Source: Bradyrhizobium arachidis
Lineage (GTDB): Bacteria > Pseudomonadota > Alphaproteobacteria > Rhizobiales > Xanthobacteraceae
NCBI RefSeq assembly: GCF_024758505.1
Contig: NZ_CP077970.1
Location: 4,898,001-4,962,000 of the forward strand
DNA length: 64,000 nt
Reading direction: 5' to 3'
Shown: piece by piece, positions 48,780-54,208 of the stretch
How the letters are laid out: each line of letters opens with the position of its first letter
Position numbering within the stretch: position 1 is the stretch's first letter
Notes under the pieces: generated by a model
The model's database searches: none
What the model saw: only the letters and a program-made list of their open reading frames with translations
What the model was told of the DNA's origin: nothing
Translations under genes and position numbers: made by a program

Positions 48780-49148
48780 TTATTCCGCCACGAACGAGGT
48801 GGTCTTGGTGCCGTGGTCGTAGCGCAGCCTCAGCGCCGTGAACTTGCAGAGGTTGACGTTCTTCCAGAGCACGGATTCGTTGTAGTCCTGCCAGTCGACA
48901 CGGATGTTCCAGACGCAGCCATCGTCATCGTCGTCGAACTCGACGTAGGTCGAGGCCGTGTTCTGCAGGACCTTTTCGAGCTCGTTATCCCATTCGTCCA
49001 GACCGTCGTCCGGCGCATTGAAGCCCAGGAACTTGATGGCGTAGCCGGTCTCGTTGACGACCGTGACGTTGCGGGCATCGGCGGCGATGGACGGCGCAGC
49101 AAACATCGCAAGACCCACTGCGACCAAGGCAGAGTAGAGATATTTCAT
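48780..49148 (-). CDS. small exported acidic protein of unknown function
   Basis: A 122-residue protein with a Sec signal peptide (YSALVAVGLAMFAAPSIAA). The mature ~99 residues start with a beta strand (RNVTVVNETGYAIKFLGF) and hold an Asp run (EFDDDDDGCVWNIRVDW) with two cysteines that may pair. The fold looks like a small beta-sandwich; a metal or ligand role for the Asp run is speculation. It is flanked by a palindromic repeat and has no partner. No function assigned. Confidence 0.65.
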   Translation of the reverse strand: MKYLYSALVAVGLAMFAAPSIAADARNVTVVNETGYAIKFLGFNAPDDGLDEWDNELEKVLQNTASTYVEFDDDDDGCVWNIRVDWQDYNESVLWKNVNLCKFTALRLRYDHGTKTTSFVAE

Positions 49149-49370
49149 GAGGGAGCCCCATTCAAAAATGAATATCCGGCACCAAGATCACCATCGGGGG
49201 GAGCGGATTTCCCGCACAACCGAAGGCGGTGCCTTGAGGATACGTCCGGACGGCGATTGAAAGGTTCAGCCGAACCGCACTTGTTTCCGAACATGTACGC
49301 CGCTTGCGCGGCGTACCGTTCGTCTTATCGAGTCCTCAATTGATCTCGCAATGAACGGGCATTCACACGC

Positions 49371-51068
49371 CTACTCTGCGGCGTCTGTTTTTGCTGTCGC
49401 CGGCGCGCTCGCAGCAACGGCCGAGCCGTTCGGCTTGCCGGTGACCGCACCGACCAGCGCCTTCACCGGATCCTCGCCCGGCGCAAAACCGCTCTGACGC
49501 AGGATCTCGTCGATCATCGGACGCAGCGCGTGCACCTTGAGGAGCTCGCCGGCAAGCCCCTCGCCGAACCCGACATTGCCGCCGCCCGCACCGTTGCCGC
49601 CGAAGGCACCGCCGGTGTGGAGAATGCGCACGTCCTTGAGGTTCGCGATCGGCTTGACCATCTCGGCCAGCGCCGACGGCATCGTCTCGATCCGCTTCTT
49701 GGCGATCTCGAAATCGATCACGTTGCTGCCGAGCTTGTTCTGCGCCTCGTTCTTCATGGTGATAACGGCGGCCTCGGCCTCGCCGATGTTCTTGACGCCG
49801 ACGGCCTTGATCTTGTTGGCCTCGGCTTCGGCCGTCGCCAGCGTCTTGACGGCCTCGGCGCGATCGAGCGACGCCTTCTTCTCGGCCTCGGCAGCGACGA
49901 TCAGCTCGGTCGATTTCCGCTCCGCCTCGGTTCGCGCGGCCAGAACCTGGGTGAGACGGGAGCGGTCTGCGACCTCGACGGCGCGCGCGGTGACGACCTT
50001 TTCCTCGGCCGAGACGGCGATCGCTTCGGCCGTCTTGGCTTCGGCGACGGCTTCCGACGTCTGCTTGCTCTTGGAGGCGATCTGGATCTCGTTCTCCTGG
50101 GTGGCGATCTGGATCTCGCGCTGCGCGTCGGTCTTGCGCTTGTTGATGGCGAGATCGGATTCGATCACCGCCGTCTCCTTGACCTGCTTGGCGCCCGCCT
50201 CCTTCTCTGCGACCGCGCGGTCGGTATCGATGCGCGCGTTCTCCTCGGTCAGGCGCGCCGTTTGCGTGGCGGTCGCGACTTCCGCGCGCGTGCTCGCGGT
50301 CTTGTTGGCGATGTCGCGCTCCTGCGAGAGCTCGGCCTCCTTCTTGGTGCGTTCGATGGCCAGGGTCTGCTGCCGCGCCTCGAGGTCCTTTTGCGCGATC
50401 GCTACCTCATTATCGCGGACGATCGAGTTGCGGTCGCGGCGGCGGGTCTCGGTGACCGTCTTCAACTGGGTCAGACCTTCGGCGTCGAAGAAGTTCTCGG
50501 GATTGAAGAATTTGACGTCGGTCTGGTCGAGTTTTGTGAGCGACACGGATTCAAGCTCGAGACCGTTGGATTTCACGTCGGACTCGACGGTCGCTTGCAC
50601 GTGCTTGACGAAATCGCTGCGCTTTTCCTGCAGCTCCAAAATGGACATGGTCGCTGCCACCGAACGCAGGCCGTCGACGAACTTTGCTTCGACCTGGTTG
50701 CGCAGGGCTTCGGCATCATTGGTCAGCGCGCCCAGCGTCTGGCTCGCCAGCGCGATGCTCTCATCGTCAGGACGAACGCGGACATAGAACTCGGCGACGA
50801 TATCGACGCGCAGCCGGTCCTTGGTGATGAGCGACTCCCGCTCCTTGCGCTCGACCGTGAGCCGCAGCGTCTTCAGATTGACGCTGGCATAGGAGTGGAA
50901 GATCGGCAGGATCATCGCGCCGCCGTCGAGCACGACCTTCTTGCCGCCGAGCCCGGTGCGGACGAAGGCCTCATCCCGCGTGGCGCGTTTGTAGAGGATA
51001 GTGAAGACGATGCCGAGAACGACGATCAGCGCGACGCCGATCATGGCCGGAACTGCGATGTCGAACAT
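49371..51068 (-). CDS. flotillin-like SPFH membrane protein (YqiK/FloT type)
   Basis: A 565-residue scaffold of membrane microdomains. An N-terminal membrane helix (MIGVALIVVLGIVFTILY) is followed by the SPFH/band 7 domain (GGAMILPIFHSYASVNLKTL, LRVDIVAEFYVRVRPDD). A long Ala/Glu/Lys coiled coil (~230-450) and a Gly-rich C-terminal part come next. The ATG at 51068 has GGAGAT upstream; the frame to 51089 begins only with TTG. Third gene of an operon with a PspA-like and a YqiJ-like protein, a set known for membrane-stress handling. Confidence 0.92.
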   Translation of the reverse strand: MFDIAVPAMIGVALIVVLGIVFTILYKRATRDEAFVRTGLGGKKVVLDGGAMILPIFHSYASVNLKTLRLTVERKERESLITKDRLRVDIVAEFYVRVRPDDESIALASQTLGALTNDAEALRNQVEAKFVDGLRSVAATMSILELQEKRSDFVKHVQATVESDVKSNGLELESVSLTKLDQTDVKFFNPENFFDAEGLTQLKTVTETRRRDRNSIVRDNEVAIAQKDLEARQQTLAIERTKKEAELSQERDIANKTASTRAEVATATQTARLTEENARIDTDRAVAEKEAGAKQVKETAVIESDLAINKRKTDAQREIQIATQENEIQIASKSKQTSEAVAEAKTAEAIAVSAEEKVVTARAVEVADRSRLTQVLAARTEAERKSTELIVAAEAEKKASLDRAEAVKTLATAEAEANKIKAVGVKNIGEAEAAVITMKNEAQNKLGSNVIDFEIAKKRIETMPSALAEMVKPIANLKDVRILHTGGAFGGNGAGGGNVGFGEGLAGELLKVHALRPMIDEILRQSGFAPGEDPVKALVGAVTGKPNGSAVAASAPATAKTDAAE

Positions 51069-51085
51069 GAAGATCTCCGATTGAT

Positions 51086-51745
51086 TCAATCCTTGAGTGC
51101 AGGTTTGGGCGGCTTGAGTTCATCGCTGGCAGCGACCGCGACGAAACGCGTGCCGATGCGGTCGACCAGCAGGACAATGGTTCCCTGCGCCAGCGGAGCC
51201 GACGACGGGGCTGCGACCGCCCAGACGAAATGCCGGTTGCCGTGGACGTCGGCGACGCTGACCCGGCCCGGCGGGCCCTGATCGAGCGGGCCGATCACGA
51301 CCTCGCCGACGCGGCCGACGAGATCGCCGAGCCCGACCGCGTAGCTTTCGTCCTTGGGAATGATCCTGGCGATGAAGCCACTGGAGATCCGCACCAGCGG
51401 GATGGAGGCGGCCAGCGCCCCGAGCGAGGCGATGGTCACCGGCAAGGGCCCGGCAACCATCCGCGCGAGATCCTGGATCAGGAAGCCCGTGATCGAGAAG
51501 GCGCCGAGCAGCAGCAGGATGAAGATCAGCAGCGGCACGCCGCCGAGATTGATCCAGGAGATGGCGTTGACCACGCCGCTATCGCTGGGGTGGCTGAAAT
51601 CGACGGCGATCCCTAGCATTTCGCTTATCGACGCGCCCACCAGCATCGCGACCACCTCGACGGAGCCGACGATGACGATCATGGCCGCCGCAATCGCGAA
51701 CGGCCTGACCTCCGGCGCCATTACATGTTCGAGCAAAGCGCTCAT
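51086..51745 (-). CDS. YqiJ/NfeD-like OB-fold membrane protein
   Basis: A 219-residue protein with four hydrophobic segments in the first ~130 residues (AAAMIVIVGSVEVVAMLVG, GVPLLIFILLLLGAFSITGF, LPVTIASLGALAASIPLVRI). A C-terminal OB-fold follows (VGRVGEVVIGPLDQGPPGRVSV). Such NfeD/YqiJ proteins are encoded beside flotillins and form membrane complexes with them (family knowledge). It lies between the PspA-like gene (10-base gap) and the flotillin gene (17-base gap). Confidence 0.85.
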   Translation of the reverse strand: MSALLEHVMAPEVRPFAIAAAMIVIVGSVEVVAMLVGASISEMLGIAVDFSHPSDSGVVNAISWINLGGVPLLIFILLLLGAFSITGFLIQDLARMVAGPLPVTIASLGALAASIPLVRISSGFIARIIPKDESYAVGLGDLVGRVGEVVIGPLDQGPPGRVSVADVHGNRHFVWAVAAPSSAPLAQGTIVLLVDRIGTRFVAVAASDELKPPKPALKD

Positions 51746-51755
51746 GACTATTGAC

Positions 51756-52910
51756 TCAGGAGCGCGACTTCAACCGCGCGAGCCTCGCCGCAATCTCCTT
51801 GTCGCGATGCAACGCGCTGAGCTCATCGATATCGCTCGAAAACGGAATCGCTGAAGGCACGCCGGTCGCCCGTGCCACGGCCCGCCCGGCACGCAAGGCC
51901 TTTGCGGCCGCAGCACTGCCGCCCTGCTTCCGGGTCGAACTTGTGGACTGGACGTTGGCCGCCGCCTCGCTTTGCTCCAGATCGGCGCGCCGCTGCTCGG
52001 CGTCCTGCAACGCGGACATCACCGCGCGCAGCGAGGTGACGCAATTCTCGATCTTCTCGTTGTTCTCGTCGATCGCGCGCGTCAGCACCTCGAATTGCGC
52101 CTCGAGGTCCATCTGCCGCGCGATGCCGGCGCGAGCGAGATCGTCACGGCTGTCGTCGACCGCGCCCTGGATCTTGGCGTTGAGGTCCGCCGTCTCGCGC
52201 TCGATCTCGCTGCGCCGCGCGTTAAGCCGATATTCCTCGGCACGTGCGGCGCCCAGCGCTTCGCGCGCTTCCGCTTCCGCGCGCTCGATCTCGCGAATGG
52301 CCTGGCTCACGACCTTCAGCTTGTTCTTGCCTTCCGCCTGCTCGATCGCGTCATACGCGATGCCGGCGATCAGGCGCCCGACCCGGGACAGGAAGTTCTC
52401 GGGGGCGGCAGCGATGGTATCCATGGCGTTCTCCTCCTCTGGCAAAATGTTCGGCGTGACGCCGTAGTGAATCTCAAAGCCGTCGTCGGTGCGGATCAGG
52501 CGGGCGGGCACGCTCTGCCCCCAGCCTTCGGCATAGCCGGCGTAGTCGAAGGGCACGCTGAAGCGTCCCTCTACGGTCGCGATCGATATGGTGGCCGGGC
52601 CCTTGATCTTGGCGAGCTTGTCGTCGAGCGGCAGACGCTTGCCGCTGGAAGCGCGGTACTCGGCGCGGTCGCGCAGGCCCAGCGTCACCAGGCGGGACGG
52701 CAGCGCGGTCTCTTTTCGGATCGCGTCATAGGCATGGGCGTGCAGCAGCACGACGTTGGAGCCCACATTGTGGGTGCGGCCCACCTCGTCGAGGATCTCC
52801 ATCATGCGGTCATAGGCCCTGAAGGTCGCCTCGATCGCGGCTGTGACGGCCGGGTCAGGAGCGAGCCTGTAGCGAAGCGCAGACGGGGCATTTCGGGGCG
52901 ACGGGCTCAT
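51756..52910 (-). CDS. TnpB-N-terminus-like domain fused to PspA/IM30-like coiled coil
   Basis: A 384-residue protein in one frame. Residues ~10-155 resemble the N-terminal part of TnpB/IS605 OrfB: RLAPDPAVTAAIEATFRAYD, the helix LHAHAYDAIRKETALPSRLV, and the strand block ATISIATVEGRFSVPFDYAG. No RuvC DED region follows. From residue 163 the chain is a PspA/IM30-like helix bundle (VSQAIREIERAEAEAREALG to ALHRDKEIAARLARLKSRS). The ATG at 52910 has a poor ribosome site. An internal ATG at 52424 has AGAGGAGGAG six bases upstream and would give a 222-residue PspA-like protein alone, so both forms may be made. First gene of the flotillin operon. Confidence 0.75.
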   Translation of the reverse strand: MSPSPRNAPSALRYRLAPDPAVTAAIEATFRAYDRMMEILDEVGRTHNVGSNVVLLHAHAYDAIRKETALPSRLVTLGLRDRAEYRASSGKRLPLDDKLAKIKGPATISIATVEGRFSVPFDYAGYAEGWGQSVPARLIRTDDGFEIHYGVTPNILPEEENAMDTIAAAPENFLSRVGRLIAGIAYDAIEQAEGKNKLKVVSQAIREIERAEAEAREALGAARAEEYRLNARRSEIERETADLNAKIQGAVDDSRDDLARAGIARQMDLEAQFEVLTRAIDENNEKIENCVTSLRAVMSALQDAEQRRADLEQSEAAANVQSTSSTRKQGGSAAAAKALRAGRAVARATGVPSAIPFSSDIDELSALHRDKEIAARLARLKSRS

Positions 52911-52918
52911 GGAAAGCA

Positions 52919-52943
52919 CTAAAGCACCATTTTGGTGCTTTAG
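52919..52943. promoter_or_regulatory. 25-bp palindrome upstream of the TnpB-like/PspA gene
   Basis: CTAAAGCACCA and its reverse complement form an 11-bp perfect stem around a 3-base centre, 9 bases upstream of the ATG at 52910. It lies where an operator or a translation-controlling hairpin would be. The gap 52911-53232 otherwise holds two DnaA-box-like 9-mers (53144-53163) and no gene I can support. Confidence 0.5.
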
Positions 52944-53232
52944 GAAGGGAATGATCAATCACGTTCCGCTGATCCCTGTGCACTCTATCGATTAGTCGCG
53001 GCAGCTCAGACCGCGTTCAAGATGGGCCGGTCACCTCTAGATCACCGGCTTTCAAGACTTCTTGCACGCGCGGGTTGCAATATTCATCAAATCGCGAGCT
53101 GTCGTCGCGGCTCAGCGGCGGATTCCCCGGGCCGCTCCACAGCTTATCCGCAGCATATCCACAGGCCTGCCCTGACGGATTTGCGAGATGTCACCTGCAG
53201 CTTGCTGCGCACTCGCCCACAGGCCGTCCGGT

Positions 53233-53499
53233 TCAGCCGCCGGCCTGGTCGAACACGGCGCGGCAGGCGTCGCTGAGGCTGGTCCGGTTGCGCCTGAGGC
53301 AGGCGGTGATGGCGCGGACGTTGGGGATTTCGCCGGCGCAGAGACGGTAGACGTCGGGGCTGCAGGCGCGGCGCTGTTCGGGCGTCCCTTGCTGGGCGCC
53401 GGCCGAAACCGAGGCGAATAGCGTGAGGAAGAGGCCAACCGTCGAGGCCCGACGGGCCCGGCTCTTGACGCCTGCAAACCGTAGGAACCGCGCCTTCAT
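53233..53499 (-). CDS. small exported cysteine-rich protein
   Basis: An 88-residue protein with a signal peptide (STVGLFLTLFASVSAGA) and a ~50-residue mature domain with four cysteines: CSPDVYRLCAG, then ACLRRNRTSLSDAC. The spacing suggests two disulfides. Similar four-Cys periplasmic proteins are frequent in Bradyrhizobium, often in several copies (general impression). Function unknown. It stands alone, divergent from the next small gene. Confidence 0.75.
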   Translation of the reverse strand: MKARFLRFAGVKSRARRASTVGLFLTLFASVSAGAQQGTPEQRRACSPDVYRLCAGEIPNVRAITACLRRNRTSLSDACRAVFDQAGG

Positions 53500-53755
53500 G
53501 ACTCCGCCTCCTGTGTTGCGCCCGTGCCTGGATGGGCCGGTGTCGCGGGGGAGCTTGCGAGAAATAAATCGCGGAGAATGTGATCTCTTTCACACTGGAG
53601 TCGGCCCGGGCCCGCCTACCCTGCGCCCCGGGGATTTTATGAAATCGCTAACCAGTCGGGCCCGCATCGTCGGATGCGTAAAATTCGATCGATCGGCTCA
53701 ACTGGACAACAAGCCGGTTTTGCGAAGTTGCGTCGTCCCGAGTGGGGAGGATGCG

Positions 53756-53935
53756 ATGAGCGAAGCCGAATTCGATTTGCTGCTGGATGCCGTGCGGGCC
53801 GCCGTTGAGCCCGTACCGGAGGAGGAATTCGTGCCCCGCTCTTGGAAGTTCAATGCGACGCTCAAGGCCGCCAACGACAATGACGGAGCCTGGCCGCTTC
53901 TGCCGTTCCCCGAGGGCTGGTACGCCGTCTGCTGA
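53756..53935 (+). CDS. small protein of unknown function
   Basis: A 59-residue protein starting MSEAEFDLLLDAVRAAVEPV and ending PEGWYAVC. A GGGGAGG ribosome site lies just before the ATG at 53756. The frame is open upstream to 53423, but that part has Arg/Pro-rich composition and overlaps the divergent gene; an in-frame ATG at 53639 is a less likely start. No family recognised. The 53500-53755 gap otherwise holds nothing I can name. Confidence 0.5.
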   Translation: MSEAEFDLLLDAVRAAVEPVPEEEFVPRSWKFNATLKAANDNDGAWPLLPFPEGWYAVC

Positions 53936-53995
53936 GACAACCGCTTTTCACCCAGCGATGCTGCCGCCGGTTTGATCAGGCGGCCGAACCCGACA

Positions 53996-54208
53996 TCAAG
54001 CTTCGACACCTTGCGATTCGTCCGGCTTCTGCGGCTCCCTGACGGGATCTGCGGGCGGGAATATGCTGTCGTAGATCGCGCGTGCCTCGCGAATGAGACG
54101 CGCCCGCTCCAGCTCGGATTTTGGAACAAATCGGACGATGTCGCCCACGTGCTCTCCAGCCTGTTGGGAATTGCATCGGTTCGCGATGCGAACTCCATGC
54201 CAAGGCAT
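53996..54208 (-). CDS. small protein of unknown function
   Basis: A 70-residue, mostly charged protein. Its core VRFVPKSELERARLIREARA followed by YDSIFPPADP is a pattern I have met in several small Bradyrhizobium proteins. The ATG at 54208 is chosen because GGGAG precedes it; the longer frame runs backward through tRNA-Cys and cannot be coding there. Function unknown. Confidence 0.5.
   Translation of the reverse strand: MPWHGVRIANRCNSQQAGEHVGDIVRFVPKSELERARLIREARAIYDSIFPPADPVREPQKPDESQGVEA

Follow-up and report, generated by a model that had tools for sequence, protein, structure and literature searches.

TnpB is a nuclease of transposons and a relative of CRISPR Cas12, and both TnpB and Cas12 are regarded as RNA-guided machines. 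In E. coli, transcription under PspA-PspF control is freed when PspA is recruited to the membrane. Among the PspA systems described, PspA has been found next to YqiJ and flotillin, accompanied there by a CesT/Tir-like partner; fewer than 2% of the PspA homologues are given as fusions or tandem repeats (PMC11237479). Partner proteins recruit PspA to the membrane both in B. subtilis pspA-ydjGHI (PMC8581546) and in E. coli PspA-PspF. In these systems the regulator is a separate protein or a sigma factor. As regards TnpB, the TldR proteins are presented as domesticated TnpBs in which RuvC has been inactivated and the guide RNA kept (PMC13418256).

The gene described here lies in the window, that is, the whole stretch of 64,000 nucleotides of Bradyrhizobium arachidis DNA that was analysed, and joins the REC+WED lobe of a TnpB to a PspA. 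It has the PspA helical hairpin and the YqiJ and flotillin partners in common with the known PspA/IM30/VIPP1 systems; however, the fusions named in the relevant parts of PMC11237479 are NlpC/P60, PspAA and tandem PspA, with no TnpB lobe among them. Like the TldRs, it would be a TnpB relative that was domesticated, became linked to a host gene and has a proposed role in transcription, but whereas TldRs are described as keeping a mutated RuvC and a guide RNA (PMC13418256), here the whole nuclease lobe is missing and no guide is apparent. Moreover, unlike in E. coli and B. subtilis, the sensor and the putative repressor would be one chain. An earlier note on this DNA had stated that no system with this fusion was known; no description of a TnpB-PspA fusion or of a RuvC-less TnpB lobe was found among the matches listed from the titles and abstract openings of the open-licence PMC literature. 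The best reading of the sequence data, towards which the balance of probability tips slightly, would be an RNA-free, TnpB-derived autoregulator fused to its own stress effector.

The fusion gene and its operon

The fusion gene runs on the minus strand from an ATG at 52910 to a stop ending at 51756 (384 residues), and is followed on the same strand by yqiJ and then by the flotillin gene (Table 1). An alternative in-frame start, the TTG at 52958, would give 400 residues; the ATG was taken as the start because of the promoter and dyad pattern upstream of it. A plus-strand reading of 51756-52910 was ruled out, since it is interrupted by a stop. Using Pfam, PspA_IM30 was detected at residues 174-335 with 39.8 bits (cut-off 33.9), no family exceeded its cut-off within residues 1-162, and none of the RuvC, zinc finger or OrfB families was present in the 384-residue frame. 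Thus, the single open frame joining a TnpB-like N-terminus to PspA, as well as its location in a flotillin operon, had been correctly recognized in the earlier note. The PspA part contains the PspA/VIPP1 helical hairpin and, since the top Foldseek matches of the full-length model were VIPP1/PspA, the N-terminal domain was modelled alone. Upstream of the operon, a minus-strand frame of 88 residues (53233-53499) has a signal-peptide-like start and several Cys.

Table 1. Coordinates within the window of the fusion gene's parts, its putative control sites and the downstream genes
Feature	Position	Strand	Evidence
Dyad AAAGCACC-N5-GGTGCTTT upstream of the start, putative operator	52921..52941	-	Sequence
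Third half-site GTGCTTT, between dyad and ATG	52913..52919	-	Sequence
TnpB-derived REC+WED domain, residues 10-151	52458..52883	-	AF2 model, VIA-align, family profile, hhalign
Codon of residue 73 (Arg in the window), column covarying with the dyad	52692..52694	-	Alignment of loci
Internal Shine-Dalgarno AGAGGAGGAG	52431..52440	-	Sequence; pairing energy in 80 genes
Putative internal start codon, Met163, of a PspA-only product	52422..52424	-	Met in 25/26 representatives
PspA/IM30 part, residues 163-384 and stop	51756..52424	-	
YqiJ-type membrane protein (YqiJ_N + YqiJ_OB)	51086..51745	-	Pfam; downstream in 65/65 loci
Flotillin (SPFH + Flot)	49371..51089	-	Pfam; downstream in 64/65 loci

Descent of the N-terminal domain

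On the evidence of both fold and sequence profile, the N-terminal domain derives from a TnpB, of which it represents the REC+WED lobe truncated immediately before RuvC, so that the pattern which had earlier been seen by eye reflects homology. The AF2 model of residues 1-162 (pLDDT 88) has a TnpB-like fold: all 50 rows listed in its structural comparison with VIA-align were TnpB, Cas12 or Fanzor, and the model matched residues 2-173 of ISDra2 TnpB. Sequence searches of the PDB, single-sequence or with the A2 profile, gave nothing convincing, and therefore a TnpB clade, that of P0140 (Mariprofundus ferrinatatus), was required as a bridge. The family profile matched 120 of 120 TnpBs of one clade (E < 1e-3) and none of 240 reversed or shuffled controls, and hhalign aligned the domain family with the TnpB clade over 137 columns (probability 98.2, E 4.4e-14), with 21 conserved positions identical between the family and the P0140 clade. 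Single-family libraries miss this relationship; in 14 members of A4, the Pfam family HTH_OrfB_IS605 was found in 2, with a best E of 0.097, below threshold, and it was not used.

Compared with the TnpBs of the P0140 clade and ISDra2, the REC+WED fold and order are the same, but the domain has neither RuvC nor zinc finger and sits in a host operon, with no adjoining transposase. The match to TnpB stops just ahead of RuvC-I, where the frame continues into PspA, and, no RuvC family being present in the frame, the nuclease-free character that had been claimed for the protein holds. Elsewhere in the same genome lie L018 (approximately 1.157 Mb) and L019 (approximately 1.753 Mb), TnpB-like genes that belong to a different TnpB group; each is split over frames, a TnpA-like frame adjoins them, and they resemble decayed IS605-type copies.

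Two probable translation starts

At the junction, Met was found in 25 of 26 representatives (Val once, in P0038), while the surrounding linker varies. The energy of pairing with the anti-Shine-Dalgarno sequence before this internal ATG averaged -9.0 kcal/mol, as against -2.2 for other codons and -1.8 for other internal Met, in 80 of 82 genes (L013 and L052 were dropped, the junction pattern not being found); in genes offering more than one Met the best one was taken, which slightly biases the comparison towards the internal start. In 71 of the 80 genes the site was among the best 5% of the gene's own codons, and seven of the nine remaining genes belong to a Pleomorphomonas-like group with weak values. 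The in-frame ATG ahead of the lobe, with a pairing energy of +1.3, has no Shine-Dalgarno. Since a strong Shine-Dalgarno is retained before the internal ATG but is lacking at the first, these sequences strongly suggest two products, namely the fusion, from a start with little or no leader, and PspA alone, translated from a ribosome-binding site within the gene. The earlier note had named this ATG as a possible true start of the homologues; these keep the N-terminal part, yet the ATG is conserved with its Shine-Dalgarno, and a short form is probably also made.

Conservation and distribution of the fusion

In a species-wide scan selecting on the lobe, lobe and PspA were found in one frame in all 65 loci, with yqiJ downstream in 65 and flotillin in 64 of them, the exception (L093) lying on a short contig. 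These loci span Rhizobium, Bradyrhizobium, Shinella, Labrys, Agrobacterium, Bosea, Pleomorphomonas and Ciceribacter, and further include a Methylobacterium MAG and some unplaced ones. When plasmids were searched with the PspA part alone, which reaches those PspA relatives close enough for such a search, 11 records were obtained and 11 of 11 carried both parts; the lobe query and the Gln-type domain (see below) returned the same 11. In the annotation of plasmid pSK03 of R. leguminosarum, the order given is PspA/IM30, OB-fold protein, flotillin. Acid-induced PspA has been reported in Rhizobium tropici CIAT 899 (PMC5936775); the plasmid record of this strain was matched by neither the lobe nor the PspA part, and the case was therefore left aside. 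Comparison of these sequences has shown that the fusion is kept in the pspA-yqiJ-flotillin operon of many Alphaproteobacteria, and, judged in the same way, it is old and maintained. The junction is accordingly conserved in other genomes, and homologues always starting after the N-terminal part, which the earlier note had considered as an objection, are not what was found.

The genome of origin (9.43 Mb, one contig) has a single copy of the domain. Among the sampled genomes, the domain is present in 6 of 10 of the window's genus, 13 of 249 of the order, 6 of 385 of the class and 10 of 398 of the phylum, the order and phylum counts each including one weak, chance-like match; in groups chosen around positive genomes it was present in 8/76, 4/17, 4/5, 1/10 and 26/338. 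This patchy presence counts against the autoregulator. The weak matches L014 (E 0.009) and L017 (E 0.006) were excluded from comparisons, L050 and L131-L134 are repeats of loci already counted, and L003, L005, L006 and L013 fall outside one parsed locus set.

In one genome (G1035, L130/L160), the lobe is encoded separately, by a 185-codon frame that immediately precedes yqiJ and flotillin and retains the dyad, and no PspA was detectable within 19 kb of it. A regulator of the operon would be expected to stay in such a case, whereas a mere servant of PspA should have been lost.

That the lobe might be a passive remnant, by chance in frame with pspA, is hardly credible. The internal start could indeed yield PspA free of it, but 14 lobe positions are invariant by entropy across 77 representative loci, the frame is kept throughout the scanned loci and the lobe persists next to no PspA in L130, so that conservation, as read from the alignments, already contradicts this explanation.

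The promoter and its dyad

The first start is immediately preceded by CTTGAAAGCAC-N7-GTGCTTTATATTT or by a variant of it, comprising a -35-like and a -10-like box with the dyad overlapping. In the loci inspected the start, GTG in some of them, follows approximately 10-12 bases past the dyad (2 in L122), and the fusion mRNA may be leaderless. Of 65 upstream regions, 58 had a dyad score of at least 12, as against none of 1244 windows drawn at random from these loci, and in 51 of 65 loci the left arm overlaps the TTGAAA box. Moreover, both arms shift together between lineages, giving GCAC, ACAC, GGAC/GGAT, GTAT and TGAC types. In the genome of origin, the 21-base pattern gave one perfect copy and two with two mismatches, as against one for a control pattern. 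An autoregulator should have an operon-specific operator at its own promoter, and the dyad counts point to one. Counting against it, the copy in the window has a perfect dyad but no clear -10, and L053, with a Gln-type domain, has only a weak dyad (AAAGGAC ... TTACTTT), placed about 90 bases before the domain and further upstream than elsewhere.

Around 18 representative loci no regulator gene stands out, the widely shared frames being the three operon genes, frames overlapping them and a few scattered others. The third half-site recurs, fully or partly, in L002-L004 and L015. The CTTGAA of the promoter presumably resembles a sigma-32-like promoter. An NtrC box was also considered as the identity of the dyad, and was dropped, as the arms vary to GGAC, GTAT, ACAC and TGAC types.

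The joint change of both arms would also be expected of an RNA hairpin which, situated in a longer leader, controlled translation and was no protein site, and some of the mismatches would then form G-U pairs (e.g. GTAC opposite GTGC). Nevertheless, C stands opposite A, or A opposite G, in L073, L085 and L010, the left arm lies over the TTGAAA box in most loci with the start too near for a leader, and a residue of the lobe covaries with the dyad, as described below; such a hairpin is considered very improbable.

Residue 73 and the putative operator

A C at position 5 of the half-site was found with Arg73 in 98 of 98 loci, and a G or T with Gln73 in 18 of 18. The rule was derived from 91 loci (79 Arg and 12 Gln), in three of which (L100, L013 and L053) the half-sites were assigned by eye, the automatic values making L100 and L013 exceptions (2/91), and it was fixed before 25 hold-out loci were compared. 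In these, with no hand edits and the spacer of the finder fixed at 7, 19 of 19 Arg loci had C and 6 of 6 Gln loci had G or T. Eight automatically found relatives of L013 are of the ACAC type that had been set by hand for L013, seven of them in both arms. Over the 116 loci, residue 73 was the sole column of 153 with no misassigned locus, and two residues of the neighbouring helix, 52 and 58, were within the six best columns. An equally clean column was found for 1 of 216 in PspA, where there are many letters and L130 is missing, and for 0 of 202 in YqiJ.

On a tree built without column 73, and with near-identical rows thinned to 77, two independent Arg/Gln switches were counted (2-3 in the bootstrap, 3 on a smaller tree), both matched by the operator; a paired tree test gave p 0.5 and cannot reach significance with so few switches, which limits the weight of the covariation. 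Furthermore, L122 and L130 show a nested reversion to Arg, accompanied by the return of GCAC in both arms.

With hhalign, residue 73 aligns with a Gln in 119 of 119 TnpBs of the P0140 clade. Its correspondence with F77 of ISDra2 was set by eye, anchored on the motif S-[QF]-x-L and A-[YF]-K, because MAFFT misplaced the REC part of ISDra2 and hhalign, used there for other TnpBs against the P0140 clade, aligned the lobe end only. F77 and the adjoining K76 of ISDra2 are reported as TAM contacts (PMC10097598).

The nucleic-acid surface

In the lobes of the P0140-clade TnpBs, 21 columns are basic in at least 80% of the sequences; in the family described here 4 of these are kept, 12 are changed and 5 have no counterpart, this comparison being a sequence proxy of the surface. 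The mean net charge is -2.2 for the lobe family (range -8 to +4; n=80, cut at 146 residues), against +10.8 for the TnpB lobes (range 4 to 20; n=119), which were taken up to RuvC-I and are longer. The RNA sensing proposed in the earlier note is not borne out by these values. A slightly acidic lobe is, at the same time, unusual for a DNA binder and counts against the autoregulator.

Descent from TnpB would also suit an RNA-guided repressor of the TldR kind, in which the lobe still bound a guide RNA, maybe encoded elsewhere, that selected the target, and the TldRs do represent a known route of TnpB domestication (PMC13418256). However, in ISDra2 TnpB much of the omegaRNA is held by RuvC (PMC10097598), a part that is gone here; the basic residues of the lobe have been lost, and within 48900-54000 Rfam yielded just two matches, both sub-threshold, although such RNAs may be absent from Rfam; guidance of this kind is judged very unlikely.

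A further explanation, possible although rather unlikely, takes the lobe as a module for protein binding or assembly control, capping or nucleating PspA polymers or anchoring them to YqiJ and flotillin, while an unlinked factor binds the dyad. It would account for the loss of 17 of the 21 conserved basic columns, for the acidic lobe and for its constant fusion, in 65 of 65 loci, to a polymer-forming protein. Against it, L130 retains lobe and dyad in the absence of PspA, residue 73 tracks the dyad, and the genome of origin lacks the further copies of the dyad pattern that a wider regulon would have.

A proposed model for the control of the operon

The dyad, the covariation of residue 73 and L130 are the reasons for proposing a protein-only repressor with the fused PspA as its stress sensor. 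The lobe would have dropped RNA guidance to act as a protein-only DNA reader, and paired lobes would bind the promoter dyad through the former TAM-reading helix, repressing the operon. Under membrane stress the PspA part, with YqiJ and flotillin, would be pulled to the membrane and the repressor would leave the DNA; the derepressed operon would make more PspA effector, and the internal start would supply extra effector. One gene would in this way be both repressor-sensor and effector of a phage-shock-like response.

The steps of this model differ in strength. From the sequence comparisons we infer DNA binding by the lobe, which probably reads a DNA switch ahead of its own genes, while analogy with the known PspA systems (PMC8581546) suggests that the lobe represses and that recruitment to the membrane would release it. 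The full proposal, in which a TAM-reading lobe became an RNA-independent transcription factor, the dyad is read by the former TAM helix with a specificity residing largely in one residue, and the PspA-fused, two-start gene serves as repressor-sensor and effector of an envelope-stress response, is regarded as evenly balanced between true and false. Of the link from nucleic acid to membrane suggested earlier, a reading of DNA at the own promoter is indicated, RNA sensing is not, and the direction appears reversed, with membrane stress more likely signalling to transcription than nucleic acid to the membrane.

Should the proposal be true, a TAM-reading module would need neither guide RNA nor nuclease to act as an ordinary sequence-specific regulator, and the rhizobia and their relatives would have a phage-shock system whose regulator is of a new kind. 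The idea can be tested with one purified domain and one 21-bp site, for which the 116 loci compared, with their natural Arg/Gln switches, constitute a ready-made specificity series. In L149, L152, L153, L156 and L157, of genus g587, both half-sites are AAGTGAC and occur with Gln73 and Leu76, the position of the latter being perhaps a second specificity position.
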